64,000 nt of DNA from Nakamurella alba (GTDB taxonomy: Bacteria; Actinomycetota; Actinomycetes; Mycobacteriales; Nakamurellaceae): the NCBI RefSeq assembly GCF_009707545.1, contig NZ_WLYK01000001.1, positions 186,001-250,000 of the forward strand, read 5' to 3'. Position 1 is the stretch's first letter. Each line of letters starts with the position of its first letter. The notes below the pieces were generated by a model. It was not told the origin of the DNA, did not search any database, and saw nothing but the letters and a program-made list of their open reading frames with translations. Both the position numbers and the translations under genes were made by a program. Of this stretch, positions 1,074-30,325 are shown in pieces.

Positions 1074-2270
1074 ATGGCCCGCGTCAGTGGACCTTTCCGG
1101 CGCACCGCCCGTGAGGTGTTGGTCGCCGAGGCCGTCCGCACCCCGATGGGCCGGTCGCACGCGGAGAAGGGATGGTTCCGCGACACCCATCCCAACGAAC
1201 TTCTCGGCGCCGTCTACGCCGAACTGCTGCGGCGCGCCGATCTGCCCGCCGCCGCCGTCGAGGACCTGATCATCGGCTGCACCGCGCCGTTCGGCGAGCA
1301 GTCCCGCAACATCGGCCGGAACGCCTGGCTGCAGGCCGGTTTCCCGGCCGAGGTGCCGGCCGTCACCCTCGACCGCCGCTGCGGTTCGGCGCAGACCGCC
1401 GTCGAGATGGGCGCCGCCCTGGTGGGTTCCGGCACCCACGACGTGGTGATCGCGGGCGGCGTGGAGCACATGGGGCACGTCCCGATGAACTCGCCCGCGG
1501 CGATCTCCGAGCTGTTCGGGGAACCCTGGCCGGCGGCCCTGCGCGAGCGGTACGACTTCGTCACCCAGGGCGAGAGCGCCGAGCTGATCGCCGACCGGTG
1601 GGGCATCGACCGGTTGCAGATGGACGAGTTCGCGGCCCGGTCGCACACGCTGGCCGCCGACGCGATCGCCGCCGGGCGGTTCGAACCGGAGATCCTGCCG
1701 TGGGACCTGGACGGCGCCGTGCGCACGTCCGACCAGACGGTCCGCCCCGGTACGACGGTGGAGACGCTCGCCGGTCTGCGCACCGTGTTCCGCCAGGGTG
1801 AGCACGCGAGGATCACCGCCGGTAGCTCGTCCCCGATCTGCGACGGCGCCTCCGGCGTCCTGCTGGCCTCCCGGGACGGGGTCGAGGAGTACGGGCTGCG
1901 GGCCCGCGCGCGGGTCGTCGACCAGACCACGGTCGGGGTCGACCCCATCATCATGCTGACCGGGCCGATCCCCGCCACCCGGAAGATCCTGGAGCGCAAC
2001 GGACTCGACATCACCGACATCGATCTGTTCGAGGTCAACGAGGCGTTCTCCTCGGTCGTGCTCGCCTGGCAGCAGGAACTGAAGCCCGACCCGGACCGGG
2101 TCAACGTCAACGGCGGGGCGATCGCGCTCGGCCACCCCGTCGGCGCGACCGGCGGGCGGCTCATCGCCACGGCGGTCGCCGAGATGGAGCGGCGGGACGT
2201 CGAACTCGCGCTCGTCACCATGTGCTGCGGCGGCGGCCTCGGCACCGCCACCCTGCTGCAGCGGATCTGA
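1074..2270 (+). CDS. Thiolase (acetyl-CoA C-acyltransferase)
   Basis: A 398-residue thiolase of normal length. The nucleophile is Cys103 in DRRCGSAQTAVEM. The C-terminal catalytic elements are NGGAIALGHPVGATGGR (His354) and the acid/base Cys385 in MCCGGGLG. It cleaves a 3-ketoacyl-CoA with CoA to acetyl-CoA and a shortened acyl-CoA. It starts one base after the upstream SDR stop and is followed, after two bases, by a CoA-transferase GTG, so it is translationally coupled within a degradation operon. The degradative direction is inferred from the neighbours. The biosynthetic acetoacetyl-CoA thiolase role is less likely because of the SDR, crotonase and HMG-CoA-lyase-like context. Confidence 0.94.
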   Translation: MARVSGPFRRTAREVLVAEAVRTPMGRSHAEKGWFRDTHPNELLGAVYAELLRRADLPAAAVEDLIIGCTAPFGEQSRNIGRNAWLQAGFPAEVPAVTLDRRCGSAQTAVEMGAALVGSGTHDVVIAGGVEHMGHVPMNSPAAISELFGEPWPAALRERYDFVTQGESAELIADRWGIDRLQMDEFAARSHTLAADAIAAGRFEPEILPWDLDGAVRTSDQTVRPGTTVETLAGLRTVFRQGEHARITAGSSSPICDGASGVLLASRDGVEEYGLRARARVVDQTTVGVDPIIMLTGPIPATRKILERNGLDITDIDLFEVNEAFSSVVLAWQQELKPDPDRVNVNGGAIALGHPVGATGGRLIATAVAEMERRDVELALVTMCCGGGLGTATLLQRI

Positions 2271-2272
2271 TC

Positions 2273-3541
2273 GTGATCGACCTCCGCCCGCTCCTGGCCG
2301 CCGGCGACGGCGTGTTCTGGAACCAGACCTGCGCCGAGCCCACCCCCTTGGTGGACGCCCTCCTCGACCAGGTCGCGGAGATCGGTGACATCCGGGCGTT
2401 CGTCGGCATGACGCTGCACCGGCGACTCACCCAGGACCCGCCGCAACAGCTGCACGTGGTGTCCTACGGCGGTCTGGGCGAGCTCCGGCGGCTCGCCCGT
2501 TCCGGGCGGCTCGAGGTGGTGCCCGCGCACTACTCGGCGCTGGCCGGCCTGTTCGCCGCCCGGCGACTGCCGGGAGATGTTGCCCTGATCCAGGTCTCGC
2601 CGCCGGACAGTGGCGGCTGGTGCACGCTCGGGCTGGGTGTGGACTACATCGCGGACGCTCTGCCGCACGCCCGCGCGGTGATCGCCGAGATCAACGCGCA
2701 GATGCCGGCGACGGCCGGTGCCCCGCGGATCCACGTCGACAGCCTCACCGCCTCGATCCGCACCGACCGGCCGCTGGTGCAGGCGCCGGAGCCGGCCGCG
2801 AGCGAGGTGGAACAGCGGATCGCCGCCCACGTCGCGGGTCTCGTGCAGGACGGCGACACCGTGCAGATCGGTGTCGGTGCGCTGCCCGGTGCAATCCTGG
2901 ACGGTTTGACCGGACACCGGGACCTCGGCCTGCACACCGGACTGATCGGCGACAGCGTCCTGCGGCTCTTCGACAGCGGCGCACTCACCGGCGCCCGCAA
3001 GGAGATCGACACCGGGCTCATGATCACCGGAGCCGCGTTCGGCGGCCCGGAACTGTACGGCCGGATCGGCGGCCTGCCGATCGAGTTCCGGCCGTCCAGC
3101 TACACCCACTCGCCGCAGGTGCTCGGCCGGCTCCGGTCCCTGGTGGCCGTCAACTCGGCGCTCGAGGTCGACCTGAACGGCGACGTCGGTGCGGAACGGG
3201 TCGGCGAACACTGGGTCGGTGCCATCGGCGGGCAGGTCGACTTCAGCCGGGCCGCCGCGCACGGCGGCGGCCGGTCGGTCATCGCACTGCGTTCGACGAT
3301 TCGGGACGCCTCGACCATCCGGGCCACGCTGGCCCAGGGTGCCCCGACCACCGTGGCCGCCGACATCGACCACGTGGTCACCGAGCACGGGGTGGCCGAC
3401 CTGCGCGGCCGCACCGCGGAGCAGCGGGCCGAGCAGTTGATCGCGATCGCAGCGCCCGAACACCGGCGGGAGCTGTCGGAGGCATGGGCCGCGACCGCGG
3501 CCGGCGGGACCAGCAGAAGGACGAAGGAGACGGCGTCATGA
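2273..3541 (+). CDS. Acetyl-CoA hydrolase/4-hydroxybutyrate CoA-transferase family protein
   Basis: A 422-residue protein of the acetyl-CoA hydrolase/transferase family, in which a glutamate forms a glutamyl-CoA thioester. The diagnostic C-terminal part contains IGVGALPGAIL, then SALEVDLNGDVGAERVGE and GGQVDFSRAA, and near the end TTVAADIDHVVTEHGVADLRG, the typical end of this family. The GTG at 2273 is chosen: it lies just after the thiolase stop, and the longer in-frame ATG at 2222 would run deep into the thiolase. Its stop overlaps the next ATG (ATGA at 3538). It would move CoA between an intermediate acid and acetyl-CoA or release a product acid. The specific substrate is not visible. Confidence 0.85.
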   Translation: MIDLRPLLAAGDGVFWNQTCAEPTPLVDALLDQVAEIGDIRAFVGMTLHRRLTQDPPQQLHVVSYGGLGELRRLARSGRLEVVPAHYSALAGLFAARRLPGDVALIQVSPPDSGGWCTLGLGVDYIADALPHARAVIAEINAQMPATAGAPRIHVDSLTASIRTDRPLVQAPEPAASEVEQRIAAHVAGLVQDGDTVQIGVGALPGAILDGLTGHRDLGLHTGLIGDSVLRLFDSGALTGARKEIDTGLMITGAAFGGPELYGRIGGLPIEFRPSSYTHSPQVLGRLRSLVAVNSALEVDLNGDVGAERVGEHWVGAIGGQVDFSRAAAHGGGRSVIALRSTIRDASTIRATLAQGAPTTVAADIDHVVTEHGVADLRGRTAEQRAEQLIAIAAPEHRRELSEAWAATAAGGTSRRTKETAS

Positions 3542-4464
3542 CAACGGTGCAGATCCGCGAGGTGGGTCCGCGGGACGGGTTCCAGAACGAGCCGGAGACG
3601 ATCCCGACTGCGGACAAGATCCGGTTGATCAACGGGCTGGGGCGGGCCGGGTTCTCCCGGATCGAGGTGGCGAGCTTCGTGCGGCCGGACGTGATCCCGC
3701 AGTTGGCGGACGGGGTGGAGGTGCTGCACGGCATCGATGTGCCGGACTCGGTGTCGTTGATGGTGCTGGTGCCGAACTCACGGGGGCTGGACAACGCGTT
3801 GGTGCAGCGGGAGTACTTCCACGAGGTGGCGTTGTTCGTGTCGGCGTCGGAGACGCACAACAAGAAGAACGTGAACCGCACGGTCGAGGAGTCGATGGCC
3901 GACAACGACGTGCTGGTCAAGCGGGTCGTGGCGGAGGACCTGACGTGCGCGGCGGTGATCGCGACGTCGTTCGGTTGCCCGTACGAGGGCAAGGTGGAGA
4001 TGTCGCGGGTGCTGGATCTGGCGGAGCGGTTCGCCGAGCACGGCGCCACCGAGCTGGGATTCGGTGACACCACCGGGATGTGCAACCCGAAGTACGCGAA
4101 CGAGTTCTTCGCGGCGGCGATCGAGCGGCTGCCCGGGGTGGAGGTCACGGCGCACTTCCACAACACGCGTGGGCAGGGTCTGGCGAACGCCTACGCGGCG
4201 CTGGAGGCGGGCTGCCGCAGCTTCGAGTCGAGCTTCGGTGAACTGGGCGGGTGCCCGGTACCGAAGGGGTCGACGGGCAACATCGCGACCGAGGACCTGG
4301 TCAGCATGTTCCACGAGATGGACGTGCAGACCGGGGTCGATCTGGACGTGGTGATCGGCTCGGCGCGGGAGGCGCAGCAGGTGCTGGGCCGCAAACTGAC
4401 CAGCCACTCCATCGTCTCCGGCCCGATCAACTGGACCCCCGGGGTCGACGTCGTCGGTCACTGA
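3538..4464 (+). CDS. HMG-CoA lyase-like retro-aldol enzyme
   Basis: A 308-residue TIM-barrel of the HMG-CoA lyase (DRE-TIM metallolyase) family. REVGPRDGFQNE at residues 7-18 carries the catalytic Arg/Asp pair. GFGDTTGMCNP, the metal-binding HFHNTRG and the signature-loop cysteine in GELGGCPVPKGSTGN are all present. The family cleaves 3-hydroxy-3-methyl-branched acyl-CoAs to acetyl-CoA plus a ketone or keto acid. In a cluster for alicyclic or terpenoid acids it could remove a tertiary-alcohol branch that blocks beta-oxidation; that role is inference. Its ATG overlaps the CoA-transferase stop (ATGA). A 96-base gap with an AGAAGAAGG ribosome site follows before the next gene. Confidence 0.9.
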   Translation: MTTVQIREVGPRDGFQNEPETIPTADKIRLINGLGRAGFSRIEVASFVRPDVIPQLADGVEVLHGIDVPDSVSLMVLVPNSRGLDNALVQREYFHEVALFVSASETHNKKNVNRTVEESMADNDVLVKRVVAEDLTCAAVIATSFGCPYEGKVEMSRVLDLAERFAEHGATELGFGDTTGMCNPKYANEFFAAAIERLPGVEVTAHFHNTRGQGLANAYAALEAGCRSFESSFGELGGCPVPKGSTGNIATEDLVSMFHEMDVQTGVDLDVVIGSAREAQQVLGRKLTSHSIVSGPINWTPGVDVVGH

Positions 4465-4560
4465 CCTTCCCCCGCACAGCACGAGAAGCACGGTCCGACA
4501 CAGCAATCCGACAGTGCCGTCCCCACACCGCAGTCACGAGCAGAGAAGAAGGCCAGTCCC

Positions 4561-5319
4561 ATGAGCAATCGCGTCGCAGTCGTCACCGGTGGTGCCCAGG
4601 GCATCGGCAAGGGGATCTCGGACGCCCTCGGCGCGGCCGGGTTCCGGGTCGCCATCGCCGACCTGAACATCGAGGCGGCGGAGAAGACGGCGGCCGGCAT
4701 CCGGGAGGCGGGCGGTGAAGCGGTGGTGGTGCGGATCGACATCACCGACACCGCGTCGGTGTCCGCCGCCATCGCCTCCGTCGCCGATCAACTCGGCCCG
4801 ATCGAGGTGCTGGTCAACAACGCAGGCTGGGACGACTTCATGCCGTTCCTGGACACCACCGAGGAGTTCTGGGACAAGATCCTGGACATCAACTTCAAGG
4901 GCGCCCTGCGGATGATCCGGAACGTCGTGCCCGGCATGATCGAGCGCGGGTACGGCCGGGTGATCAACATCGGGTCGGACGCCGGCCGGGTCGGATCGTC
5001 CCTCGAGGCCGTCTACTCCGGCGCCAAGGGCGGGATCATCGCCTTCACCAAGACCCTCGCCCGGGAGGTCGCCACCAAGGGCGTCACGGTGAACACGGTG
5101 TGCCCCGGACCCACCGACACCCCGGCACTGCGGAAGTTCGCCGACAACGCCGGCCAGGACGCCGAGAAGGTGATCAGCGGGATGACCCGCGCGGTCCCGA
5201 TGAAGCGACTGGGGCGGCCCGAGGACGTCGGCACCGCCGTGGCCTTCTTCGCCTCCGACGCCACGTCCTTCATCACCGGCCAGACGCTGTCCGTCAGCGG
5301 CGGCCTGACGATGGCGTGA
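4561..5319 (+). CDS. badH: SDR, 2-hydroxycyclohexanecarboxyl-CoA dehydrogenase-like (BadH-like)
   Basis: A 252-residue SDR with TGGAQGIG near the N-terminus, NNAG at 87-90, Ser139, Tyr152 and Lys156. The stretch around the active site (SDAGRVGSSLEAVYSGAKGG, then FTKTLAREVATKGVTVNTV and CPGPTDT) is strongly reminiscent of BadH of Rhodopseudomonas and Thauera. BadH oxidises 2-hydroxycyclohexanecarboxyl-CoA to the 2-keto compound. A BadI-like ring hydrolase is encoded in the same window at 29.2-30.1 kb, which supports a cyclohexane-carboxylate type route. A crotonase start lies five bases after its stop. A general 3-hydroxyacyl-CoA dehydrogenase cannot be excluded without alignment. Confidence 0.8.
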   Translation: MSNRVAVVTGGAQGIGKGISDALGAAGFRVAIADLNIEAAEKTAAGIREAGGEAVVVRIDITDTASVSAAIASVADQLGPIEVLVNNAGWDDFMPFLDTTEEFWDKILDINFKGALRMIRNVVPGMIERGYGRVINIGSDAGRVGSSLEAVYSGAKGGIIAFTKTLAREVATKGVTVNTVCPGPTDTPALRKFADNAGQDAEKVISGMTRAVPMKRLGRPEDVGTAVAFFASDATSFITGQTLSVSGGLTMA

Positions 5320-5324
5320 GCGGC

Positions 5325-6143
5325 ATGACCTCCACCGCGACCACCACCGGCCCCTCCGCCGCGGCTGGTGCCCCCGTGCCTGCCGTGGCCCACGAGATCG
5401 ACGGCGACCTGCAGGTGATCACGCTGCAGCGCCCCAAGGCCAACGCGCTCGGCGAACCGATCATCGACGGCATCAACGCCGCGCTGGACGCTGCCGACGC
5501 CGCCGGCGGCGTCAAGTACGTCGTCGTTGCCTCCGCGCTGCCCGGATTCTTCGCCGCCGGGGCCGACATCAAGCTGATGGCGGAGGCCGATGCCGAGGGG
5601 TTCCTCGCCTACGGCAACCGGCTGCGGGGCGCCCTGGACCGGCTCGCCTCGGCCGACCGCATCACGGTCGCCGCCGTCGACGGGCTCGCGCTGGGCGGCG
5701 GCCTGGAACTGGCCATGGCCTGCACACTCCGGGTCGGCGGCGCCGACGCCTCGTTCGGGCTGCCCGAGGTGCGCCTCGGGCTGATCCCGGGAGCCGGTGG
5801 GACACAACGACTGCCACGACTGGTCGGCCGCGGCCGTGCGCTGGACATCATGCTCACCGCCCGGCAGGTGCCCGCCGAGGAGGCGCACGTCATCGGGCTC
5901 GTCGACCGGCTGGTGCCGGCGGGCACGGCACTGCAGCACGCACTCGAGCTGGTGGCGGGCCTGCGCGGGATGTCCCTGCCGGCGCAGCAGGCGGTCATCC
6001 GGACCGTCGATGCCGCCGCGGACCTCCCGCTGGAGCAGGGGCTGGCCTTCGAGGTGACGCAGGAGCAGGAACTGTTCGAGACCGGTGAGGCGGCCGAGGG
6101 TATCGCCGCCTTCGTCGGCAAACGGGCGCCCCGGTTCGGCTGA
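5325..6143 (+). CDS. Enoyl-CoA hydratase (canonical crotonase)
   Basis: A 272-residue crotonase with both hydratase glutamates in place: Glu128 in GGGLELAMAC and Glu148 in LPEVRLGLIPGAGGTQRL, like the hydratase half of FadB/FadJ. The oxyanion-hole segment is AAGADIKLM. It adds water to a 2-enoyl-CoA to give the 3-hydroxyacyl-CoA. Placed five bases after the BadH-like gene, it could act as a BadK-like cyclohexene-1-carboxyl-CoA hydratase supplying that enzyme; this pairing is inference. The ATG at 5325 is preferred over upstream in-frame codons that lie within the previous gene. The N-terminal 20 residues are Ala/Thr/Pro-rich and outside the fold. Confidence 0.9.
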   Translation: MTSTATTTGPSAAAGAPVPAVAHEIDGDLQVITLQRPKANALGEPIIDGINAALDAADAAGGVKYVVVASALPGFFAAGADIKLMAEADAEGFLAYGNRLRGALDRLASADRITVAAVDGLALGGGLELAMACTLRVGGADASFGLPEVRLGLIPGAGGTQRLPRLVGRGRALDIMLTARQVPAEEAHVIGLVDRLVPAGTALQHALELVAGLRGMSLPAQQAVIRTVDAAADLPLEQGLAFEVTQEQELFETGEAAEGIAAFVGKRAPRFG

Positions 6144-6260
6144 CGTCCGGACCGCAGACCGACAGCCGGAGGTCGATACCGTCCTGGCGGACGTACCTGT
6201 GGCGCCATTGAAGATCCGCCCGCCGGACCCGGCGGGCCGCAGCACCACCGAGGAGAGAAC

Positions 6261-7073
6261 GTGACCGACTGGGCGGCGTCGCTCGAGACGATCAGGATCG
6301 ACCGGCCGGACGAGGGCATCGTGGTGGCCACGCTGCACCGCCCGGAACGGCTCAACGCCATGAACAACACCATGTTCCGCGAGTTCGAGGTGCTCGCCCG
6401 GCGGGTCGACGCCGAGCCGGCGACCCGGGTGCTCGTGCTGACCGGGGCCGGGCGCGGGTTCTGCGCCGGCTACGACCTCGAGGACGCCGAGGAGCTGCCC
6501 GGACTCACCGCGATGGGCATGCTGGACCAGCAGGAACTCGCAGCCCGCGGCCTGTCCGCCCTGCGCGGGATCAAGCAGCCGCTGATCGCCGCCGTCAACG
6601 GCGCGGCCGCCGGTGGCGGGCTGTCGCTGTCGCTGTGCGCGGACATCCGGCTGGCCTCGCCGGCGGCGAGGTTCAACGCCGCCTTCGTCCGCATCGGCCT
6701 CTCCGCGGGGGACCTCGGCGCCTCCTGGCTGCTGCCCCGGCTGATCGGACCGGCCCGGACGGCCGAGATCGCCTACACCGGGCGCATCGTCGGGGCCGAG
6801 GAGGCCGAGGCGATCGGCCTGGTCAACCGGGTGGTGCCGGCCGACGAGCTGCTGCCGGAGACGCTGTCGATGGCCCGGGCGATCGTCGCCAACTCCCCGG
6901 CCGGTATCCAACTGTCCAAGCGGGCGCTGCAGAACAACCTGGAGATCGGCAGCTACGGCGCCGCCCTGGAACTGGAGAACCGGGGCCAGGCGCTCCTCAC
7001 CCGCGGCGCGGACATGGCCGAGGCCCTCGCCGCGTTCAAGGCCAAGCGCGCCCCGCAGTTCACCGGAGCCTGA
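6261..7073 (+). CDS. Crotonase-family protein lacking the hydratase glutamates
   Basis: A 270-residue crotonase starting at GTG 6261 behind AGGAGAG. The fold motifs are clear (GRGFCAGYDLED, AAAGGGLSLSLCADIRLA, LGASWLLPRLIGPARTAEIAYTGR split over residues 66-175). The first catalytic Glu of hydratases is Ser122 and the second position is Gly-Asp (RIGLSAGDLG, Asp151). A simple hydration role is therefore unlikely; isomerase or other crotonase chemistry through the Asp is more plausible. It is a close tandem paralogue of the next gene; both end with IGSY.AALELENRGQALL followed by TRG.DM and a KRAP..FTG tail. A 117-base gap separates it from the preceding hydratase. Confidence 0.88.
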   Translation: MTDWAASLETIRIDRPDEGIVVATLHRPERLNAMNNTMFREFEVLARRVDAEPATRVLVLTGAGRGFCAGYDLEDAEELPGLTAMGMLDQQELAARGLSALRGIKQPLIAAVNGAAAGGGLSLSLCADIRLASPAARFNAAFVRIGLSAGDLGASWLLPRLIGPARTAEIAYTGRIVGAEEAEAIGLVNRVVPADELLPETLSMARAIVANSPAGIQLSKRALQNNLEIGSYGAALELENRGQALLTRGADMAEALAAFKAKRAPQFTGA

Positions 7074-8488: not shown

Positions 8489-10102
8489 TCAGACCGGGAC
8501 GGCCGTGGCCGGGGGCTGCCCCAGCGCCCAGGCGCGGAGCAGGAACTTCTGGATCTTCCCGGTGGCGGTCACCGGGAACTCGTCGACGAAGAACCACACC
8601 CCGGGCACCTTGAACGAGGCGAGCCGCTCCTTGCAGAAGGCCCGGAGCGACTCCGGGGTGACCTCCGATCCGGGAGCCCGCTGCACGATCGCCGCCACCA
8701 CCTCTCCCCAGTGCGGATCGGGCAGGCCGATGACCGCGGACTGGCGGACCTCCGGATGGGTCGAGAGCAACTGCTCCACCTCCGCCGGGTACACGTTCTC
8801 CCCGCCACGGATCACCATGTCCTTCAGCCGGCCGACGATGCGCAGGTAGCCCCGCTCGTCCATGGTGCCCAGGTCACCGGAGTGCAGCCAGCCGTCGTCG
8901 GACAGCGCCGCGGCGGTGGCGGGCCCGTCGCCGAAGTAGCCCAGCATGGTCTGGTAGCCGCGGACACAGATCTCGCCCGGCTCACCGGTCGGCACCACCT
9001 CGCCCGTCGCGGGATCGGTGACGGCGACCTCGACGTGCGGCAGAGGTGCGCCGATGGTCTCCGACATGTCCTCGGGGCTGTCGGACAGCCGGGTCTGGCT
9101 GATCACACCGTGCATCTCCGTCTGCCCGAACAGGATCGAGAAACCGCACCCGAACGCGGAAGTGGTGCGCCGGACCAGCTCGGCGGGCACGAAGGAAGCG
9201 CCGGACATGACGGTCCCCAGGGACGAGAGGTCCCGGGTGCGGGCGTCCGGATGATCGAGCATCGCGACCAGCATGGTGGGGACCGCGAGCATGATGGTGC
9301 CGCGGTAGGTCTCGATCAACTCGAGCTGCAGTGCAGGGTCGAAAGCCGGTAGCAGGACGTAGGTCCCGTGGTGGGTGAAGGTCCCGAGCTCGGTGAGGGC
9401 GCCGCCGCCGATGTGGAACATGGGCATGGAGTTGACCCACACCGCGCCGTCGGTCACGCCGGCGCCCCTGGCCACGAACCGCGATGCATTCACGAGGCCC
9501 CGGTGGTGCAGGAGCGCGGCTTTCGGGAAACCCGTTGTCCCGGAGGTGTACTGGATCTGACAGGGATCGTCCGGTGTCACCTCCGGCAGCTCGTGCGCGC
9601 CGGGCGTCCCGCCGAGAAAGCCCGCCCAGTCGTCGAACGAGACCACCTGGCGCACATCGGGGAGGTCCGGTTGCATGTCGACGACGGCCTGGTAGGGCCG
9701 GAACCCGCGGTACTCGCCGGCGGCGAACACCCCGGCGGCACCGGAGTTCGACAACACGTGCCGGACCTCGGACTCGCGCAGCGCCGGGTTGACCGTGACC
9801 AGCACCAGCCCGGCCAGTGCCGCGCCATGCTGGAGCAGCACCCAGTCCGCGCTGTTCGGCGACCACACCGCGACCCGTTCGCCGGGTGCGAACCGATCCA
9901 GCAGCAGGAGCGCGATGTGTCGTACCTGGGCATCGAGCTCGGCGTAGGTCCAGGTCCGTCGCGCCTCCGGCGCCGCCACGGCATCGACGAGTGCCACCCG
10001 GTCCGGGCAGGTGGCGACCGCGGAGGCGAGCACCCCGGGAACGGTCGTCTCGATCAGCGGAAGGGAGATGTCGGCAGGTCGATGTGACGTGGATCGCATC
10101 AT
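8489..10102 (-). CDS. Class I adenylate-forming acyl-CoA ligase
   Basis: A 537-residue acyl-CoA ligase from ATG 10102 (a second ATG follows at once). The AMP-binding loop is YTSGTTGFPKA; later motifs are LFGQTEMHG, SGDLGTMDERGYL, VIRGGENVYPAEVE and the C-terminal catalytic lysine in PVTATGKIQKFLLR. It activates a carboxylic acid with ATP to an acyl-AMP and then an acyl-CoA. Longer in-frame starts to 10174 run into the promoter region and are not favoured, though no strong ribosome site is visible at either. It is divergent from the dehydratase/reductase module across a 188-base region carrying two TGGTCnGACCA-type operators, suggesting it makes the CoA ester that this module or the ring pathway uses. 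The substrate is not determined. Confidence 0.92.
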   Translation of the reverse strand: MMRSTSHRPADISLPLIETTVPGVLASAVATCPDRVALVDAVAAPEARRTWTYAELDAQVRHIALLLLDRFAPGERVAVWSPNSADWVLLQHGAALAGLVLVTVNPALRESEVRHVLSNSGAAGVFAAGEYRGFRPYQAVVDMQPDLPDVRQVVSFDDWAGFLGGTPGAHELPEVTPDDPCQIQYTSGTTGFPKAALLHHRGLVNASRFVARGAGVTDGAVWVNSMPMFHIGGGALTELGTFTHHGTYVLLPAFDPALQLELIETYRGTIMLAVPTMLVAMLDHPDARTRDLSSLGTVMSGASFVPAELVRRTTSAFGCGFSILFGQTEMHGVISQTRLSDSPEDMSETIGAPLPHVEVAVTDPATGEVVPTGEPGEICVRGYQTMLGYFGDGPATAAALSDDGWLHSGDLGTMDERGYLRIVGRLKDMVIRGGENVYPAEVEQLLSTHPEVRQSAVIGLPDPHWGEVVAAIVQRAPGSEVTPESLRAFCKERLASFKVPGVWFFVDEFPVTATGKIQKFLLRAWALGQPPATAVPV

Positions 10103-10141
10103 GGGCGGCGACGCTAGCCGAGATGCGGTCCGATGTACAGA

Positions 10142-10152
10142 TGGTCCGACCA
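10142..10152. promoter_or_regulatory. Operator palindrome TGGTCCGACCA
   Basis: A perfect inverted repeat TGGTC-C-GACCA just downstream of the putative minus-strand -10 of the ligase gene, about 40 bases before its ATG. It is one of the recurring sites in this window with consensus TGGTCnGACCA, which fits the T.GT...AC.A pattern of FadR-subfamily GntR operators. Confidence 0.6.
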
Positions 10153-10154
10153 AA

Positions 10155-10182
10155 AATCTGGACTTCCGGAACATCGGGACAA
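10155..10182 (-). promoter_or_regulatory. Putative promoter of the acyl-CoA ligase gene
   Basis: On the minus strand TTGTCC (10182-10177) and CAGATT (10160-10155) are separated by 16 bases. The TGGTCCGACCA operator follows two bases downstream, where a bound repressor would block initiation. Confidence 0.4.
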
Positions 10183-10290: not shown

Positions 10291-11472
10291 ATGGTGGACA
10301 TCGAGGACCGGGTCGTTCCCGGTCGGGCGATCGCCCGGTTGACCGCGGTCGCCGGCGACCCGGACGCCTACGTCCGGGAATGGAAGCAGCGCACCGGCGG
10401 CCGGGTCATCGGGGCCTTCCCGATGAACTTCCCCGCCGAGATCGCCCATGCCGCAGGCCTGTTGCCGGTCCTGATCCAGGAGAACCGGGAGACGATCACC
10501 GTCGGCCGCAACCTGCTGACCGAGTTCTACTGCGGATACACCCGGAACATCGCCGACCAGGCCGCCAAGGGCAGGCTGTCGATCTACGACGGGTTCTACA
10601 ACGCCGACCACTGCATCCAGCTGCTGGGTGCGGTCGACGTCACCCGCGAGTTCGAGGAGGACACGCCGGTCTACTTCGGGCAGTTGGAGACCTCCATCGG
10701 CAGCACCTGGGCGATCGACAAGGTGCAGCGCAAGATGGCGGCGTTCCGTGCGGAGATCGCGGGTTTCGTCGGACACGACATCCACGACGACGACCTGCGG
10801 GCCAGCATCGAGCTGTTCAACGAGCAGCGCCGGCTGCTGCGTCGGTTCTACGACGAGCGGCGTTCCGGCAACGCCTACTTCTCGCCGGCCCACCTGCAGG
10901 TCCTCGTGAAGTCCGGGATGGTCATGGACCGGGCGGAACACATCGCCCTGCTGCAGGAGGTGCTGCAGCTCGGCCTGTCCGCCGAGCGGCAGCGCGGTCG
11001 GATCAAGGTCCACCTGTCCGGACACTTCTGCCATGCCCCGCGGACCGAGCTGCTCGAGCTGATCGAGGAGTGCGGCGCCCAGGTCGTCGACGACGACCTG
11101 TTCCACGGGACCCGTTGGATCGCCGCCGACGTGCCGGACGCCGACGACCCGATCGAGGCGATGGCGCTGTGGTACCTGGCGCGCAACGTCGCAGTGCCCT
11201 GCCCGACCCGGGTGCAGCACGACGTCGACTGGGACGGCTACCTGCTCGACGTGCTCGACGGCAGCGGCGCCGAGGGCCTGATCGTCCTGATGGCCAAGTT
11301 CTGCGAGCCGCACATGCTCTACTACCCGGAGCTCCGAAAAGCTCTGGACAGCAAGGGTATCCCGCACCTCTTGATCGAGACCGAGCACGAGGGGATGCCG
11401 CTGGAGTCCATGCGGACCCGGATCGAGGCGCTCCTGGAACGCATCCGCCGGCGCCAGGCCGTCCTGGTCTGA
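10291..11472 (+). CDS. 2-Hydroxyacyl-CoA dehydratase/benzoyl-CoA reductase family subunit (BcrC/HgdB-like)
   Basis: A 393-residue protein of the HgdB/BcrC/BadD family, one of the two [4Fe-4S]-binding subunits that reduce or dehydrate an acyl-CoA by a ketyl-radical mechanism. It starts with the family pattern around RVIGAFPMNFPAEIAHAAG. Conserved cysteines include Cys81, Cys108, Cys247, Cys304 and Cys338. The C-terminal AKFCEPHMLYYPEL, followed by a KGIPHLLIETE segment, is diagnostic. The ATG at 10291 has a weak AGGTCGG site 9 bases upstream. The second subunit and the activator follow within 60 and 41 bases, so this is a complete three-gene system. Dehydratase versus ring-reductase function cannot be decided from sequence alone; a single activator type favours a dehydratase-like arrangement. 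Confidence 0.85.
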   Translation: MVDIEDRVVPGRAIARLTAVAGDPDAYVREWKQRTGGRVIGAFPMNFPAEIAHAAGLLPVLIQENRETITVGRNLLTEFYCGYTRNIADQAAKGRLSIYDGFYNADHCIQLLGAVDVTREFEEDTPVYFGQLETSIGSTWAIDKVQRKMAAFRAEIAGFVGHDIHDDDLRASIELFNEQRRLLRRFYDERRSGNAYFSPAHLQVLVKSGMVMDRAEHIALLQEVLQLGLSAERQRGRIKVHLSGHFCHAPRTELLELIEECGAQVVDDDLFHGTRWIAADVPDADDPIEAMALWYLARNVAVPCPTRVQHDVDWDGYLLDVLDGSGAEGLIVLMAKFCEPHMLYYPELRKALDSKGIPHLLIETEHEGMPLESMRTRIEALLERIRRRQAVLV

Positions 11473-11528
11473 CCCCCCATGCCACTACCTGATCCCGACG
11501 CCACCAGCACCCGAGAGGAACCGAGCCC

Positions 11529-12863
11529 ATGAGCACCGCCGTCGCGAGCCCGATGAACAGGCTCGGCTCCACCGCGCTGGCCGGCGCGATGACCAGCGCC
11601 TACTGGGAAAGGATCTTCACCGCGCGGGAACGCGGGGCGCAAGTGGTCTGGTACAACGGCTCCGCGGTCAACGTCATCTTCCAGGCCGCCGGGCTGGAAT
11701 GGTGCCACGGCGAGGCGTTCTCGGCACGACTGGCCGCCCAGCACCTGGAGAAGCCGGCCCAGCTGGCCGGCGAGGAGTACGGCTACGTCGGCGAGCTGTG
11801 CAGCTACGCCCGGACCCATCTCGGCTGCGCGGTCCTCACGCAGCAGGCGCGCGAGGAGGAGAACTCGGGCGTCGTCGGCATGGTCGACCAGCGGGAGTTG
11901 GCGAGCCGGCTGCCGGCACCGGACTTCTTCGTCAATGCCTACGCGGGCTGCAGCACCGGCCAGCAGTGGGACGAGATCTCCTACCGGGTGTTCGGCAAGG
12001 ACGTCCCCATCTTCAACGTGTCCCTGCCGTTCCTCTGGGGGAACAAGCCGGATGCCGGCTACCTGCGAGGTCAGGAGTGGGAGGAGGCGACCACCTACGT
12101 CTCCGACCAGCTGCACGACCTGATCCGGTTCGTCGAGCAGATGACCGGACGGAAGTTCGACTTCGACCGGCTCCGCGAGGTCATGTCGTACGTGAAGAAG
12201 GCCTCGGAGCTGCGCCGCGAGGCCATGGCCATGTGCAAGGCCGCGCCCACCCCGGCCACCTACTGGGACTGGATCGCCAGCATCGCGCCGATCAACTTCC
12301 TGCCGGCCGGCCCGGAGCTCGTCGCCTACTTCCAGGCAGTGCGGGACGAGGTCGCGCAGCGGCTGGCGGACGGGGTGCCCGGGATCGCGAACGAGCGCTA
12401 CCGCCTCTACTTCGACGGCATCATGAACTGGAACAAGCTCGGCTACCTGGCGCGCAAGTTCGCCGAGTACGACGTCGCAGTGGTCTGCGGGCGCTACACG
12501 CACAATGCGTTCTGGCAGGAGCCGCACCTGATCGACACCGACGACCCGATCCGGGGTATGGCCCAGCACTACCTGCTGTGCCCGACCAACCACGGGGTCC
12601 GGACGCTCAAGTACCTGACGAACCGGGACTGCGCCGACTACGGCGTGGACGGGATCGTCTTCCACTCGACCCGCACCTGCCGGGCCTTCACCAATCCTCA
12701 GCACCTGCTGGCGAAATCGGCGCAGAAGGAACTCGGCATCCCGTCGATGTTCTTCGAGGGCGACGTGGCCGACGCCTCCTTCTACAAGGAGGAGATCCTG
12801 GAGAGCCGGCTGGTCGCCATGCTCGAGGGCATCGACGTCCGCCGTGCCCGGGCACTGGCCTGA
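11529..12863 (+). CDS. 2-Hydroxyacyl-CoA dehydratase/benzoyl-CoA reductase family subunit (BcrB/HgdA-like)
   Basis: A 444-residue partner subunit behind GAGAGGAA. It has the family features WYNGSAVNVIFQAAGLEWCH, ELCSYARTHLGC, YAGCSTGQQWD, VVCGRYTHNAFW and, near the end, GIVFHSTRTCRAFTNPQHL with IPSMFFEGDVAD. Cysteines at 59, 91, 100 and 141 and those in VVCG, LLCP and TRTC are candidates for cluster ligation. With the 10291 protein it would form the catalytic heterodimer that receives single high-energy electrons from the ATP-driven activator. The family is normally found in anaerobes and is oxygen-sensitive; here it stands in a cluster that also encodes a P450, which is unusual. The product (dehydrated or ring-reduced acyl-CoA) is unknown. 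Confidence 0.85.
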   Translation: MSTAVASPMNRLGSTALAGAMTSAYWERIFTARERGAQVVWYNGSAVNVIFQAAGLEWCHGEAFSARLAAQHLEKPAQLAGEEYGYVGELCSYARTHLGCAVLTQQAREEENSGVVGMVDQRELASRLPAPDFFVNAYAGCSTGQQWDEISYRVFGKDVPIFNVSLPFLWGNKPDAGYLRGQEWEEATTYVSDQLHDLIRFVEQMTGRKFDFDRLREVMSYVKKASELRREAMAMCKAAPTPATYWDWIASIAPINFLPAGPELVAYFQAVRDEVAQRLADGVPGIANERYRLYFDGIMNWNKLGYLARKFAEYDVAVVCGRYTHNAFWQEPHLIDTDDPIRGMAQHYLLCPTNHGVRTLKYLTNRDCADYGVDGIVFHSTRTCRAFTNPQHLLAKSAQKELGIPSMFFEGDVADASFYKEEILESRLVAMLEGIDVRRARALA

Positions 12864-12903
12864 CACCCGCAGGCGTCGGAGGAACGGAGAGGTGGTGGAA
12901 CGC

Positions 12904-13869
12904 ATGGTCACCGAAGTCGGGAAGTACTACCTGGGAGTGGATCTCGGGTCCACCACCGCCAAGTCGGTGATCGTCGACGAGCGCGGCGCGATCGTCGGCT
13001 CGAACGTCGTCCAGATGGGCGCCGTGAGCAAAGAGGGCATGCGGCGCTCCGTCGAAGGTGCGCTCCTGGCGGCGGGGCTGGTCCGGGACGACATCAGCGG
13101 CACCATCGGCACCGGGTACGGCCGCCGCCTGGTGCCCGGCGTCGATCGGACCTTCACCGAGATCACCTGTCATGCGCGAGGTGTCGCGGCCATGTGCCCG
13201 GGTGTGGCGCTGGTGATCGACGTCGGCGGGCAGGACAGCAAGGTGATCGCCGTGGACGACGAGGGCCTGGTCGACAACTTCGCCATGAACGACCGGTGCG
13301 CCAGCGGCACCGGACGCTTCTTCGAGGTGCTCGCCCGAGCCATCGAGGTCGATGTCGACGACCTGGGCGCCCTCGCCCTGCGCGGGACCAGGGATCTCGA
13401 GGTCAGCAGCATGTGCGCGACATTCGCCGAGACCGAACTGGTCTCGCTGCTGGCCGAGGGTGCCGAACCCGCCGACATCGCCGCATCCGTGCACCGGGCG
13501 GTGGCTGCCCGGACGCTGGGCATGGTCGCCCAGGTGGGCAAGCGATCCCCGGTGGTCATGACCGGTGGGGTCGCGAAGAACGCGGCAGCGGTGAAGTTCC
13601 TCGCCGACCTGCTCGGTACCGATGTCCGGGTGCCGGCCGACCCCCAGGTGACCGGCGCCTACGGCGCCGCCCTGCTCGCCCTGGAGACCTACGGAGCGAA
13701 CGGGTCGGAACCCGGGTCGGACGTCGAGTTCCCGGTGCGCGCCGCACCGGGCTGTGCCACCTGCGCCTTGGTGAACGGCGGATCGACGTCGACGCCGGGT
13801 GCGCACGATGCCGGCGCACACGCCGCTGCGGCGACCCCACTGCGGCTCACCATCCATTCACACCGCTGA
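12904..13869 (+). CDS. ATP-dependent activator ATPase of the dehydratase/reductase (BadF/BcrA/HgdC family)
   Basis: A 321-residue member of the BadF/BadG/BcrA/BcrD ATPase family (ASKHA fold). Motifs: GVDLGSTTAKSVIVD (phosphate 1), EITCHARG, VIDVGGQDSKVI (phosphate 2) and MTGGVAKN (adenosine). The two cysteines that hold the [4Fe-4S] cluster between two protomers are Cys132 (NDRCASGTGR) and Cys171 (SSMCATFAETE). It hydrolyses ATP to drive one-electron transfer to the catalytic subunits. Only one activator gene is present, implying a homodimer as in hydroxyacyl-CoA dehydratases; class I benzoyl-CoA reductases use two different ATPase subunits. Residues 263-321 are an extra Gly/Ala/Thr-rich tail with a Cys-x2-Cys (284-287). 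GTG 12892 behind GGAGG is an alternative start. Confidence 0.88.
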   Translation: MVTEVGKYYLGVDLGSTTAKSVIVDERGAIVGSNVVQMGAVSKEGMRRSVEGALLAAGLVRDDISGTIGTGYGRRLVPGVDRTFTEITCHARGVAAMCPGVALVIDVGGQDSKVIAVDDEGLVDNFAMNDRCASGTGRFFEVLARAIEVDVDDLGALALRGTRDLEVSSMCATFAETELVSLLAEGAEPADIAASVHRAVAARTLGMVAQVGKRSPVVMTGGVAKNAAAVKFLADLLGTDVRVPADPQVTGAYGAALLALETYGANGSEPGSDVEFPVRAAPGCATCALVNGGSTSTPGAHDAGAHAAAATPLRLTIHSHR

Positions 13870-15588: not shown

Positions 15589-15616
15589 TAGAATCAAATA
15601 GCGAATGGTTTGACCA
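15589..15616 (+). promoter_or_regulatory. -10 element and operator TGGTTTGACCA upstream of the SDR/ligase operon
   Basis: TAGAAT (15589-15594) is a good -10. TGGTTTGACCA (15606-15616) follows at the expected start of transcription and differs from the palindrome consensus at one arm position. No good -35 is seen. The leader to the GTG at 15712 is about 110 bases. Confidence 0.5.
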
Positions 15617-15711
15617 AAGCGGCTTTGCCGGGAGCCGTGCACGTCCGGCGACCGAGCCGCGCCACCGCACCGTTCGCGACGATCAACGACGCACGTCCCC
15701 AAGGAGTTCTC

Positions 15712-16527
15712 GTGAGTACACCCGATCTTCCCCCGCCGCCGGTCGCCGCGGACGGATTCGACCTGGCCGGGCGCGGAGTCGTGATCACCGGAGGCACCTC
15801 GGGTGTCGGCCTGGCCACCGCGATCGCGTTCGCCCGGGCCGGCGTGCGTCGTCCGGTGCTGGTCGGCCGGAACCAGGAGCGTGGCAAGGATGCGGTGCGC
15901 GCAGTCGTCGCAGCGGTGCCCGATGCGGACCCGCAGTTCCTCGCGGCGGATGCCAACGATCCGGTGATGGTGGAGGACGCCGCCGCCACCGCCGTCGGAC
16001 TGCTCGGCCGGGTGGACGTACTGGTCAACTCCACCGTCGCCCCGTACCAGCCCACGCTGCTGCACCACATCCCGCTCGCCGACGTCGCAACGATCCTGAC
16101 CCAGCAGGCACTCGGGCCGTTGATGATGAGCCGGGCGCTGCTGCCCCACATGCAGCAGAGCGGCGGCGGATCGATCATCAACATCGCTTCGGACGCGGCG
16201 CGGGTGCCGACACCGGGGGAGACCGTGCTGGGCGCGGCGATGGCCGCCATCGTCACCTTCTCCCGGACACTGGCCGTCGAGGGGAAGCGGAACGGGGTGC
16301 GGGTCAACGTCATCACCCCGTCGTTGATCGTCAACACCGGTTCCTACGACCGGGCGATGAGCCTGGAGTTCAGCAAGAAGATCTTCGACAAGATCGTGTC
16401 GCAGGCACATCTGGGACTGACCGAACCGGAGGACCTGGCGAACACCGTGCTGTTCCTGGCTTCCGATCTGTCCCGCCGGATCACCGGTCAGGTGATCAGC
16501 ATCAACGGAGGGATCTCGGTCGCCTGA
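15712..16527 (+). CDS. SDR-family protein with substituted catalytic Tyr and Lys
   Basis: A 271-residue SDR fold protein starting at GTG 15712 behind AAGGAG (5-base spacing); the longer in-frame ATG at 15610 would start inside the operator. The cofactor motif TGGTSGVG is intact, as are the tail TGQVISINGG and the NIASDAARVP strand. Where YxxxK should stand, the sequence reads TVLGAAMAAIV, so Tyr becomes Leu and Lys becomes Met. Canonical hydride-transfer catalysis is therefore doubtful. It may be a binding or scaffold protein, may use another proton relay, or may be degenerating. Asn-Ser-Thr (VNSTVAP) also replaces the usual NNAG. It begins an operon with an acyl-CoA synthetase and a DMT permease. 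Confidence 0.85.
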   Translation: MSTPDLPPPPVAADGFDLAGRGVVITGGTSGVGLATAIAFARAGVRRPVLVGRNQERGKDAVRAVVAAVPDADPQFLAADANDPVMVEDAAATAVGLLGRVDVLVNSTVAPYQPTLLHHIPLADVATILTQQALGPLMMSRALLPHMQQSGGGSIINIASDAARVPTPGETVLGAAMAAIVTFSRTLAVEGKRNGVRVNVITPSLIVNTGSYDRAMSLEFSKKIFDKIVSQAHLGLTEPEDLANTVLFLASDLSRRITGQVISINGGISVA

Positions 16528-25981: not shown

Positions 25982-27028
25982 ATGAACTGGGACTGGTCGG
26001 CGGAACAGCTCGGCACCCTCGCCGGATTCCTTCAGGAACGCGGCATCACCTCCGGGCCGGTGACCACCAGGCCGATCGGCGACGGCCACTCGAACCTGAC
26101 CTACCTGGTGTCCGACGGCGAGCACGACGTGGTGCTGCGGCGCCCGCCGCCGCCCCCAGTCCCTGCGGGCGCGCACGACATGCTCCGCGAGGCACGGCTG
26201 ATCGGCGCACTCGGGTCCTCCGAGGTGCCCGTCGCCGATCTGCTGGCGGTCGGTCAGGCCGGCGACGTCATCGACGTGCCGTTCTACGTGATGAGCCACG
26301 TGCGCGGACCGGTGGTGACCGCCGCGACGCCCCCGCCGCTGGACAGGCCGGACGACCGGCGGCGGATCGGTGAGTCGTTGATCGACACTCTCGCTGCGCT
26401 GCACCAGGTGGACTGGGAGCAGGCGGGTCTGGCCGGGCTCGGCCGCCCGGACAACTTCAACGCCCGGCACCTGCGCAGCGTCGGCCGGCTGGTCAACGCC
26501 GAGGACGGCACACCGCCGCCGGAGTTCGCCGCGATCGATGCCTGGCTGAAGTCCGCGGTCCCCGCCCAGTCCGGCGCGGCCATCGTGCACAACGACTACC
26601 GCATCGGCAATGTCATCCTGGCTCCCGAATCCCCGGGCCGGATAGCGGCGGTACTCGACTGGGAGCTCGCCACCATCGGCGACCCGCTCTTCGACCTCGG
26701 CTACTTCCTGTCCTCCTACCCCGAGCCGGGCGAGACCCTCACCCCCACCGGCGAGTTCGGTGTTGCGGTCTTCGAGCCCGGCTATCCCTCGCGGGCCGAG
26801 CTCGCCGACCGGTACGCGGCCACCACCGGACGCGACCTGTCCGGGATCGCCTGGTACCAGGCGCTGGCCCTGTGGAAACTGGCCGCGCTCTACGAGTACG
26901 GACGGCGGCGTGCCGTCCGCGGGGTCGGTGATCCGTACTACCGCGAGCGGACCAAGGTCGAAGCGTTCCTGGTGGCCGCGCACCAGGTTGCCGGACTCGA
27001 CGCCCCGGTGGTCCCGGCCGGCGACTGA
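25982..27028 (+). CDS. APH-fold phosphotransferase (ACAD10/11 kinase-domain type)
   Basis: A 348-residue protein of the aminoglycoside-phosphotransferase fold, of the subgroup found with acyl-CoA metabolism. The nucleotide-binding N-lobe contains RPIGDGHSNLTYLV and VLRRPP. The Brenner-type catalytic loop is HNDYRIGNVIL (His203, Asp205, Asn210) and the metal-binding motif is LDWELATIGDPLFDLGYFL (Asp226). These proteins resemble the kinase domain fused to acyl-CoA dehydrogenase in mammalian ACAD10/ACAD11, which acts on 4-hydroxyacyl-CoA. Antibiotic resistance is unlikely in this setting. A TAAGAT -10-like element lies at 25905-25910. The gene ends at a bidirectional hairpin shared with the convergent SDR gene. 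Confidence 0.85.
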   Translation: MNWDWSAEQLGTLAGFLQERGITSGPVTTRPIGDGHSNLTYLVSDGEHDVVLRRPPPPPVPAGAHDMLREARLIGALGSSEVPVADLLAVGQAGDVIDVPFYVMSHVRGPVVTAATPPPLDRPDDRRRIGESLIDTLAALHQVDWEQAGLAGLGRPDNFNARHLRSVGRLVNAEDGTPPPEFAAIDAWLKSAVPAQSGAAIVHNDYRIGNVILAPESPGRIAAVLDWELATIGDPLFDLGYFLSSYPEPGETLTPTGEFGVAVFEPGYPSRAELADRYAATTGRDLSGIAWYQALALWKLAALYEYGRRRAVRGVGDPYYRERTKVEAFLVAAHQVAGLDAPVVPAGD

Positions 27029-30057: not shown

Positions 30058-30115
30058 GCCGTGCGTCCTTCCGGGGTGGCAGGCATGACGTCGGGAGGCG
30101 CCGCGCTGCACCATT

Positions 30116-30126
30116 TGGTCTGATCG
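30116..30126. promoter_or_regulatory. Operator-like site TGGTCTGATCG
   Basis: The left arm and centre of the TGGTCnGACCA consensus are intact and the right arm merges into GATCGTTCAC, the reverse complement of GTGAACGATC. It lies at the expected start of minus-strand transcription of the BadI-like operon. Confidence 0.45.
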
Positions 30127-30133
30127 TTCACCC

Positions 30134-30162
30134 AATCTAGCGCTGTGAACGATCGTTTTCAA
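30134..30162 (-). promoter_or_regulatory. Putative promoter of the BadI-like operon
   Basis: Minus-strand TTGAAA (30162-30157) and TAGATT (30139-30134) with a 17-base spacer are the best sigma-70-like pair in the window. The spacer holds the AACGATCGTT palindrome and the operator-like site lies downstream, leaving a leader of about 70 bases to the ATG. Confidence 0.6.
30148..30157. promoter_or_regulatory. Palindrome AACGATCGTT (second operator motif)
   Basis: A perfect 10-bp palindrome preceded by GTG and followed by TTCA. The same block, GTGAACGATCGTTT, occurs at 38246-38259 in another divergent promoter region. It sits between the -35 and -10 of the BadI-like promoter. Confidence 0.5.
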
Positions 30163-30325
30163 GTGGTGGTTCCCGGCTGGTCCCGCCGGTGGTGGGGTGA
30201 CCGAGACCCGCTGTCCCGGAACGACCTCCGCAGTGCAGGGGACCGCCCTCCGCGGCCTTCCGGCCCGTGTGGCGCCGACCCGACGGCTGTCGGCCGCGCC
30301 ATCGGGACGGTCGTAGGCTCGCCCC

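Follow-up and report, generated by a model that had tools for sequence, protein, structure and literature searches.

Introduction

Enzymes of the benzoyl-CoA reductase/2-hydroxyacyl-CoA dehydratase (BCR/HAD) family are generally seen as enzymes of anaerobes and as highly sensitive to oxygen. According to the available part of PMC11971306, the benzoyl-CoA reductase subunit BzdN uses six cysteines to bind a double-cubane cluster, of which the dehydratases keep only a remnant, and in BzdO the residues Trp46, Glu65, Tyr97, His131, Gln274 and Tyr298 lie around benzoyl-CoA and the cluster of that subunit. For terpenoid rings, the accessible part of a paper on Castellaniella defragrans states that cleavage of cyclic monoterpenes needs an sp2 carbon at C1, and names Azoarcus KH32C as holding the closest Mrc homologues (PMC4109377). 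Here, we describe three neighbouring genes for two BCR/HAD-type subunits and an activator (the trio) in a window of 64,000 nucleotides from Nakamurella alba (contig NZ_WLYK01000001.1, positions 186,001 to 250,000). An initial annotation had proposed that the system is complete, resembles dehydratases in its single activator and lies within an oxygen-using cluster for ring degradation, and our analysis supports this. The family itself is known; what appears to be new, judging by the sequences, is a radical dehydratase/reductase branch whose carriers are mostly aerobic.

Results

The trio consists of the following genes:
10291-11472, + strand: HadC/BzdN-like beta subunit, 393 amino acids; PF06050 209 bits (cut-off 28.4); cluster Cys81, Cys108 and Cys338
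11529-12863, + strand: HadB/BzdO-like alpha (active-site) subunit, 444 amino acids; PF06050 169 bits (cut-off 28.4); Glu62, Cys91, Cys141 and Cys384
12904-13869, + strand: ATPase activator of the HgdC/HadI type; PF01869 202 bits; TIGR00241 240 bits, over its cut-off

All three reading frames are open and show a coding GC pattern. The activator start is best placed at the ATG at 12904, and Cys132 and Cys171, counted from there, align with the HadI cysteines; the profiles, the open frames and this alignment confirm that, as initially described, two subunits and an activator with both cluster cysteines are intact. Membership in the BCR/HAD family follows from both subunits and the activator exceeding curated cut-offs. 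A profile search of the whole 6.05 Mb genome returned two PF06050 matches, which are the alpha and beta subunits of the trio, and four PF01869 matches, of which the trio activator reached 203 bits, the next 59 bits and two fell below the cut-off. The trio activator is the sole strong activator match of the genome.

Among solved structures in the PDB, the alpha subunit matched HadB best (3o3m_A, 91 bits), followed by MbdO and BzdO, the beta subunit matched HadC (3o3m_B, 136 bits), followed by MbdN and BzdN, and the activator matched HadI (4eht, 221 bits), followed by MbdQ and HgdC. None of the NCBIfam equivalog cut-offs for the subunits was reached: the HadB and HadC models gave 141 of 750 and 148 of 700 bits, and the subunits stayed far below the cut-offs of the BcrB/C and BzdN/O models. 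The DCCP model gave 112 of 350 bits; the gene pair is heterodimeric and cysteine is absent at beta positions 44 and 271, at odds with a DCCP assignment. An AlphaFold2 model of the alpha subunit (38-row alignment; mean pLDDT 87.6, pTM 0.89) had HadB 3o3m as its top Foldseek match (TM 0.80 by query, 0.88 by target), together with MbdO 9g87 (0.82 and 0.83) and BzdO 8s02 (0.80 and 0.81).

Both trees, each including three solved references of which HadB/C is the only solved dehydratase, place the trio on a deep, strongly supported branch of its own within the BCR/HAD family, separate from HadB/C, MbdO/N and BzdO/N. The alpha clade holds 91 rows, including two identical pairs (100% SH-aLRT, stem 3.49), and the beta clade 90 rows (100% SH-aLRT, stem 1.51); the deep order, with its long branches, is not settled. 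The initial annotation had suggested a phylogeny of this kind: HadB/C and BzdO/N, with MbdO/N, are represented and the clade stands apart, whereas HgdAB, FldBC and BcrBC, which it had also named, were left out. Placement in a clade of known function with loss of the cluster cysteines, which it had listed as counting against it, was not what we found, since the clade is separate and the cysteines are kept.

No close alpha homologue was present in 60 relatives of the host, which gave three weak matches of at most 27% identity, none of them from the 16 genomes of the host's genus; in the remaining 395 genomes of the phylum sample, all relatives found were at or below 34%. Relatives of 66-68% are encoded on plasmids of Rhodococcus ruber, Sphingopyxis macrogoltabida and Rhodobacteraceae QY30, and one of 50% on a plasmid of Azoarcus KH32C. 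A scan of named genomes, seeded with clade members and keeping the best 80 of 97 relatives, found at least 78 loci (in fewer than 78 genomes) at 50-82% identity. By sequence similarity, the branch thus spans many loci and is not a property of one odd genome. Counted from record titles, some of metagenome-assembled genomes, 45 of the 78 belong to Actinomycetota (Rhodococcus, Nocardia, Gordonia, Amycolatopsis, Pseudonocardia, Nocardioides, Saccharopolyspora, Citricoccus, Brevibacterium and others) and 33 to Pseudomonadota (Zhongshania, Hydrocarboniphaga, Sphingopyxis, Novosphingobium, Paracoccus, Mesorhizobium, Solimonas, Aromatoleum and others). Most carrier genera are known as aerobes (e.g., Rhodococcus, Nocardia, Gordonia and Sphingopyxis), and there are a few denitrifiers among them (e.g., Aromatoleum, Azoarcus and Paracoccus). 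Among the matches listed, the open-licence PMC literature contained no description of the branch, no paper pairing a 2-hydroxyacyl-CoA dehydratase with Rhodococcus and none pairing 4-isopropylbenzoyl-CoA with p-cymene; the available parts of PMC11881993 (Rhodococcus monoterpenes) and PMC4097962 (a monoterpene review) held nothing helpful on the trio enzyme.

Two clade pairs per genome were found in 7 of 15 searched genomes (G452-G457 and G461). Such pairs within one genome or locus (L041/L063, L042/L069, L047, L061, L064, L092 and L098) often lie each near a ligase or SDR2, the BadH-like gene described below, and the copies may serve different isomers. Other PF06050 arrangements were also seen. 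A very distant further pair, with long stems in both trees, occurs in Rhodococcus jostii NBRC 16295 and Citricoccus zhacaiensis (L166, G453:C23; L167, G454:C12). On a plasmid of Rhizobium leguminosarum ATCC 14479 (L130, 7887-13315), a distant pair is accompanied by two annotated activases, as in benzoyl-CoA reductases, amid symporter, rhodanese and sulphate permease genes. Plasmid p1 of Novosphingobium sp. ES2-1 (L131, 7833-9134) encodes a lone annotated 2-hydroxyacyl-CoA dehydratase-family protein, flanked by CoA transferase and TRAP transporter genes, with no annotated activator in the stretch. In Aromatoleum (L162, G451, 4514-6712), a single 733-amino-acid frame matches the activator and beta profiles, i.e., a fused activator-subunit protein; a second activator precedes it, and another weak PF06050 frame follows.

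The cluster cysteines are almost invariant. Alpha C91, C141 and C384 are kept in 90 (one gap), 91 and 91 of 91 clade rows, beta Cys81, Cys108 and Cys338, and also C304, in 90 of 90 each, and both activator cysteines in all 77 aligned clade activators. Glu62, Tyr93 and Tyr323 of the alpha subunit are, like its cluster cysteines, conserved in 90 or 91 rows. The extra alpha cysteines C236 (90/91), C351 (91/91, in a CPT motif like that of beta C304) and C100 (85/91) possibly protect the cluster. Beta position 44 is Pro in 89 of 90 rows, and position 271 is Tyr (62), Phe (21) or Trp (7), whereas BzdN and 26 of 28 distant rows carry Cys at each; HadC and MbdN likewise lack both. If, as we infer from conservation, these two positions are double-cubane ligands, the clade beta subunit would not have all six. 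Around benzoyl-CoA or the cluster, the position of BzdO Trp46 is Ala in 81, that of His131 Gly in 91 and that of Gln274 Ile in 84 of the 91 alpha rows, the last as in HadB.

Exactly one activator gene lies within 5 kb of 77 of the 91 clade alpha genes, none near 14 and two near no gene. Aromatoleum serves as a comparison, since its genome holds two bzd-type loci (L163 and L164), with two activators each, alongside a one-activator clade member. The N. alba genome gave no match over the cut-off for a 2-oxoacid:acceptor oxidoreductase alpha subunit (OAFO_sf), other low-potential electron donors not having been searched; this suits an enzyme that needs only priming electrons. The missing ferredoxin gene beside the trio was rejected as evidence against reduction: judged by motif, a ferredoxin gene lies within 5 kb of 3 of the 91 alpha genes, but the bzd control loci gave none either.

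The most constant partner of the trio is SDR2, which 64 of the 82 clade loci have in their fetched flanks:
15610-16527, + strand: SDR2, BadH-like short-chain dehydrogenase (SDR), true start uncertain; PF13561/PF00106

Aligned by eye, its active-site region matches the BadH-like SDR of the window residue by residue. The catalytic Tyr is lost in all 67 rows (Leu in 33, Ile in 32, Ala in 2) and the catalytic Lys in 65 of 67 (Met), while Ser194, Asp195, Thr201, Pro202, Gly203 and Glu204 are invariant and the Gly-rich nucleotide motif is kept. From these residues, SDR2 may catalyse an isomerisation, may be a reductase relying on different acid/base residues, or may serve as a binding partner.

The window further encodes the following:
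1074-2270, + strand: thiolase; PF00108, PF02803; TIGR01930 over cut-off
2222-3541, + strand: CoA transferase of the acetyl-CoA hydrolase/transferase family; PF13336 132 bits
3538-4464, + strand: 3-hydroxy-3-methylglutaryl-CoA (HMG-CoA) lyase-like; PRK05692 324 bits (cut-off 246, passed)
4561-5319, + strand: BadH/MrcD-like 2-hydroxycyclohexanecarboxyl-CoA dehydrogenase candidate; TIGR03206 323 bits (cut-off 431); intact YxxxK (YSGAK)
8489-10174, - strand: AMP-forming acyl-CoA ligase 1; PF00501 289 bits
16567-18492, + strand: AMP-forming acyl-CoA ligase 2; PF00501 150 bits
27179-28075, - strand: 2,4-dienoyl-CoA-reductase-like SDR; PRK07677 223 bits (cut-off 318)
29245-30327, - strand: BadI/MrcE-like ring-cleaving hydrolase candidate; TIGR03210 330 bits (cut-off 468)
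30326-31183, + strand: MenB-like crotonase, second ring-cleavage candidate; MenB models over cut-off; BadI 278 bits, not passed
31260-32714, - strand: aldehyde dehydrogenase (ALDH); PF00171 520 bits
32752-33855, - strand: zinc alcohol dehydrogenase (ADH) of the benzyl-alcohol-dehydrogenase type; 5tnx 342 bits; benzyl alcohol dehydrogenase 1f8f 316 bits
33976-34299, - strand: [2Fe-2S] ferredoxin frame, start approximate; CGGSCSCATC motif read
34284-35684, - strand: ferredoxin reductase; PF07992, PF14759
35525-36892, - strand: CYP108-type cytochrome P450, proposed C7-methyl hydroxylase; P450tol 7v40 699.5 bits; P450terp 1cpt 467 bits
38164-39459, + strand: cyclohexanecarboxyl-CoA-dehydrogenase-like acyl-CoA dehydrogenase; TIGR03207 326 bits (cut-off 575)

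The P450, ferredoxin chain and LLM enzymes reported earlier hold up, in that the P450, the ferredoxin reductase and an LLM enzyme are real and a ferredoxin frame lies beside the P450; the BadH- and BadI-like genes were likewise found, with scores below their equivalog cut-offs. The accessible part of PMC11279926 describes two P450s of Rhodococcus globerulus, CYP108N12 and CYP108N14, that hydroxylate p-cymene and limonene at the ring methyl; CYP108N14 also attacks this position in alpha-terpineol and 4-terpineol. We read the island as a putative p-menthane monoterpenoid pathway, and the gene islands of the clade probably degrade plant terpene-like ring compounds. Beside genes for CoA-ester conversion lies an APH-type kinase gene (25982-27028), which 16 of the 82 clade loci have in their flanks; we take its product to resemble the LvaA kinase of 4-hydroxyacyl-CoA pathways.

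Linkage was followed in the fetched flanks of the 82 loci, with neighbours counted at self-set identity thresholds, and in 15 genomes picked for diversity, not randomly. A ligase was found in 60 flanks, a ligase or CaiB in 68, ADH in 16, ALDH in 9 and CYP108 in 7, and, at 60% identity or more, thiolase and HMG-CoA lyase in 2 each. At 67% or more, CYP108 is present in 7 of the 15 genomes, in 6 on the contig of the trio. In all nine chosen Actinomycetota, a CoA transferase gene (48-62%) adjoins a MenB-like gene (75-87%), in eight on the trio's contig; in all six Pseudomonadota, a CoA transferase gene (34-41%) lies within 4 kb of a BadI-like crotonase gene (49-55%), in five, not Zhongshania, on the trio's contig. 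A BadH-like SDR (50-54%) occurs in the fetched stretch of five of the six Pseudomonadota and adjoins the BadI-like gene in four. R. ruber pmega_1 carries a very similar gene set, with the P450 at 195 kb and the trio at 226-230 kb. On Azoarcus pAZKH, a BadK/BadH/BadI-like set about 25 kb from the trio probably corresponds to the Mrc homologues named in the Castellaniella paper. In Prauserella (L068), thiolase- and CoA-transferase-like genes directly precede the trio. Judged by this linkage, the trio resembles a module placed in front of ring cleavage and connected to it.

The MenB-like gene was rejected as an island marker, because orthologues of 72-84% occur in 4 of the 60 relatives without a close alpha homologue. 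In three same-genus genomes (G013, G001 and G006; 74-84%), the 80 kb around them gave no match to the trio, ligase, P450, CoA transferase or HMG-CoA lyase, and other window genes matched at 48% at most. Since the rest of the island is absent there, these orthologues do not represent ring cleavage without a dehydratase. They weaken the MenB half of the actinobacterial linkage, while the CoA transferase half stands.

Discussion

We tentatively propose, with somewhat less than even confidence, that the trio forms a ketyl-radical dehydratase primed by ATP, belongs to a new BCR/HAD branch and removes a tertiary hydroxyl next to the thioester before the ring enters BadK/BadH/BadI-type cleavage. The CYP108 P450, ferredoxin and reductase, followed by the alcohol and aldehyde dehydrogenases, would yield an acid for the CoA ligases, and the substrate would be of the 1-hydroxy-p-menthan-7-oyl-CoA type. 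The activator would hydrolyse ATP and drive one electron into the alpha/beta dimer, and this electron would be recycled as in 2-hydroxyacyl-CoA dehydratases. Such alpha-hydroxyacyl-CoA dehydration could turn C1 of a 1-hydroxy acid sp2 and so widen the substrate range of ring cleavage. Cleavage of the 4-isopropyl ring might then give 3-isopropylpimelyl-CoA and, via beta-oxidation, 3-hydroxy-3-isopropylglutaryl-CoA, from which an HMG-CoA lyase-like step would release acetyl-CoA and 4-methyl-3-oxopentanoate, the latter probably passing through CoA transferase and thiolase to isobutyryl-CoA. A new substrate, raised as a possibility in the initial annotation, now seems probable.

We prefer dehydratase to benzoyl-CoA reductase chemistry because there is one activator per subunit pair and the cysteine pattern is HadC-like. 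Compared with class I benzoyl-CoA reductases, the trio does not have two different activators, does not reach the BcrB/C and BzdN/O cut-offs and, a weak point, lacks BzdO Trp46, His131 and Gln274; with 2-hydroxyacyl-CoA dehydratases it shares a single kind of activator and a beta subunit without the six double-cubane cysteines, as far as conservation identifies these ligands. Taken together, the evidence favours a dehydratase that needs only priming electrons, and the activator count appears a stronger argument than the loss of BzdO residues; as MbdO shares this loss, we rejected it as proof against a ring-reducing function. The initial annotation was thus right in what it observed and partly right in its interpretation: the dehydratase half of its double label is favoured, while the benzoyl-CoA reductase half is less likely.

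Several observations weigh against this proposal. MbdO/MbdN, a true ring reductase, likewise lacks His131, Trp46, Gln274 and both beta cysteines, and the beta subunit scores near-equally with the HadC, BcrC and BzdN models, all far under their cut-offs. The Ser that HadB (Ser37, presumably catalytic) shares with BzdO (Ser44) and with 27 of 29 distant rows gives way to Gly in 90 of 91 clade rows, the remaining row having a gap. The SDR next to the BadI-like gene of Solimonas (G458) resembles BadH at just 29%, and the ring-cleavage genes of Zhongshania (G460) and Gordonia polyisoprenivorans (G464) are found on a separate contig. We know of no 1-hydroxy acid demonstrated in such a pathway. Moreover, oxygen sensitivity is left without explanation, and simple dehydration gives SDR2 no role.

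The SDR2 problem keeps alive a second reading, aerobic reductive dearomatisation, which we consider unlikely though by no means negligible. Here, a one-activator, benzoyl-CoA reductase-like trio would reduce p-cumoyl-CoA, formed from p-cymene via CYP108, to a cyclohexadiene or cyclohexene carboxyl-CoA for BadK/BadH/BadI-like cleavage, and in Rhodopseudomonas these steps do come after benzoyl-CoA reductase. It agrees with the benzyl-alcohol-type ADH and dienoyl-CoA-reductase-like SDR of the island, with Foldseek placing MbdO next to HadB, with the residue states that MbdO/N and the clade have in common, and with a P450 nearest to P450tol, CYP108N12/N14 acting on p-cymene in the available part of PMC11279926. 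However, there is no second activator in the genome or within 5 kb of the 91 alpha genes, no OAFO_sf match over the cut-off in the genome and no BcrB/C or BzdN/O score near a cut-off, and two Rieske dioxygenase alpha matches lie elsewhere in the genome; aerobes have cheaper dioxygenase routes.

Just as unlikely, and compatible with any other reading, is the low-oxygen branch raised in the initial annotation, with the same chemistry confined to oxygen-poor niches and the enzyme being expressed or active only once respiration has removed oxygen. The oxygen sensitivity of characterised relatives and the denitrifiers among the carriers, such as Aromatoleum, Azoarcus and Paracoccus, speak for it; most carriers, however, belong to genera known as aerobes, and the linked P450 requires oxygen. 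Slightly less probable again is a Birch-type reduction of p-cumoyl-CoA in air by a one-activator enzyme aided by the altered SDR2, feeding an oxygen-dependent terpene pathway. Least probable, to the point of being improbable, is a late step in which the trio converts 2-hydroxyisobutyryl-CoA, left by alpha-terpineol-type substrates (C8 hydroxyl) after HMG-CoA lyase, CoA transferase and thiolase, to methacrylyl-CoA for valine catabolism: the three required genes are consecutive at 1074-4464, thiolase- and CoA-transferase-like genes stand just ahead of the Prauserella trio, and CYP108N14 hydroxylates alpha-terpineol (PMC11279926, available part), but most loci pair the trio with a ligase or CaiB and SDR2, of which ligase and SDR2 would be superfluous here, and thiolase and HMG-CoA lyase are rare in the flanks.

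Under the dehydratase proposal as under its alternatives, a whole branch of this family resides in bacteria known as aerobes, is sometimes plasmid-borne and adjoins oxygen-dependent P450s. Two questions thereby become testable: by what means an ATP-primed radical Fe-S enzyme could operate in the presence of air, and by which route aerobes degrading terpenoids dispose of a tertiary hydroxyl adjacent to a carboxyl group or bring about the reduction of an aromatic ring. An oxygen-tolerant member, if confirmed, would be a useful biocatalyst.

Among known systems, the (R)-2-hydroxyisocaproyl-CoA dehydratase HadBC with HadI (3o3m/4eht) resembles the trio in the best sequence match, the top fold match, three cluster cysteines per subunit, one activator, the HadC-like cysteine pattern and Ile at the BzdO Gln274 position. 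It differs in its separate clade, with 22% identity in the structural match, in HadB Ser37, replaced by Gly in the clade, and in lacking the clade's alpha Asn300, Arg322 and Glu331 (91/91 each) and extra Cys236 and Cys351; its setting differs too, the trio occurring in genera known as aerobes and in islands with a P450. The 3-methylbenzoyl-CoA reductase MbdONPQ (9g87, 9gai) shares the fold, the cluster cysteines, the Arg following the last of them, the lack of Cys at beta 44 and 271 and the second-best activator match (MbdQ), but has two different activators (MbdP and MbdQ), 19% identity in the structural match and Tyr for Trp301. The class I benzoyl-CoA reductase BzdNOPQ (8s02) shares the fold, Glu65/Glu62, Tyr97/Tyr93 and three catalytic-cluster cysteines, and departs from the trio in its two activators, in BzdO Trp46, His131 and Gln274 and, according to the available part of PMC11971306, in the six-cysteine double-cubane cluster of BzdN. 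At the level of the island, the mrc/geo/ctm genes of C. defragrans follow the same logic of acid, CoA ligase and BadK/BadH/BadI-like steps; no such dehydratase is named in the accessible part of that paper (PMC4109377). The first oxidation in C. defragrans is independent of oxygen, whereas a CYP108 P450 is proposed to open the pathway of the window.

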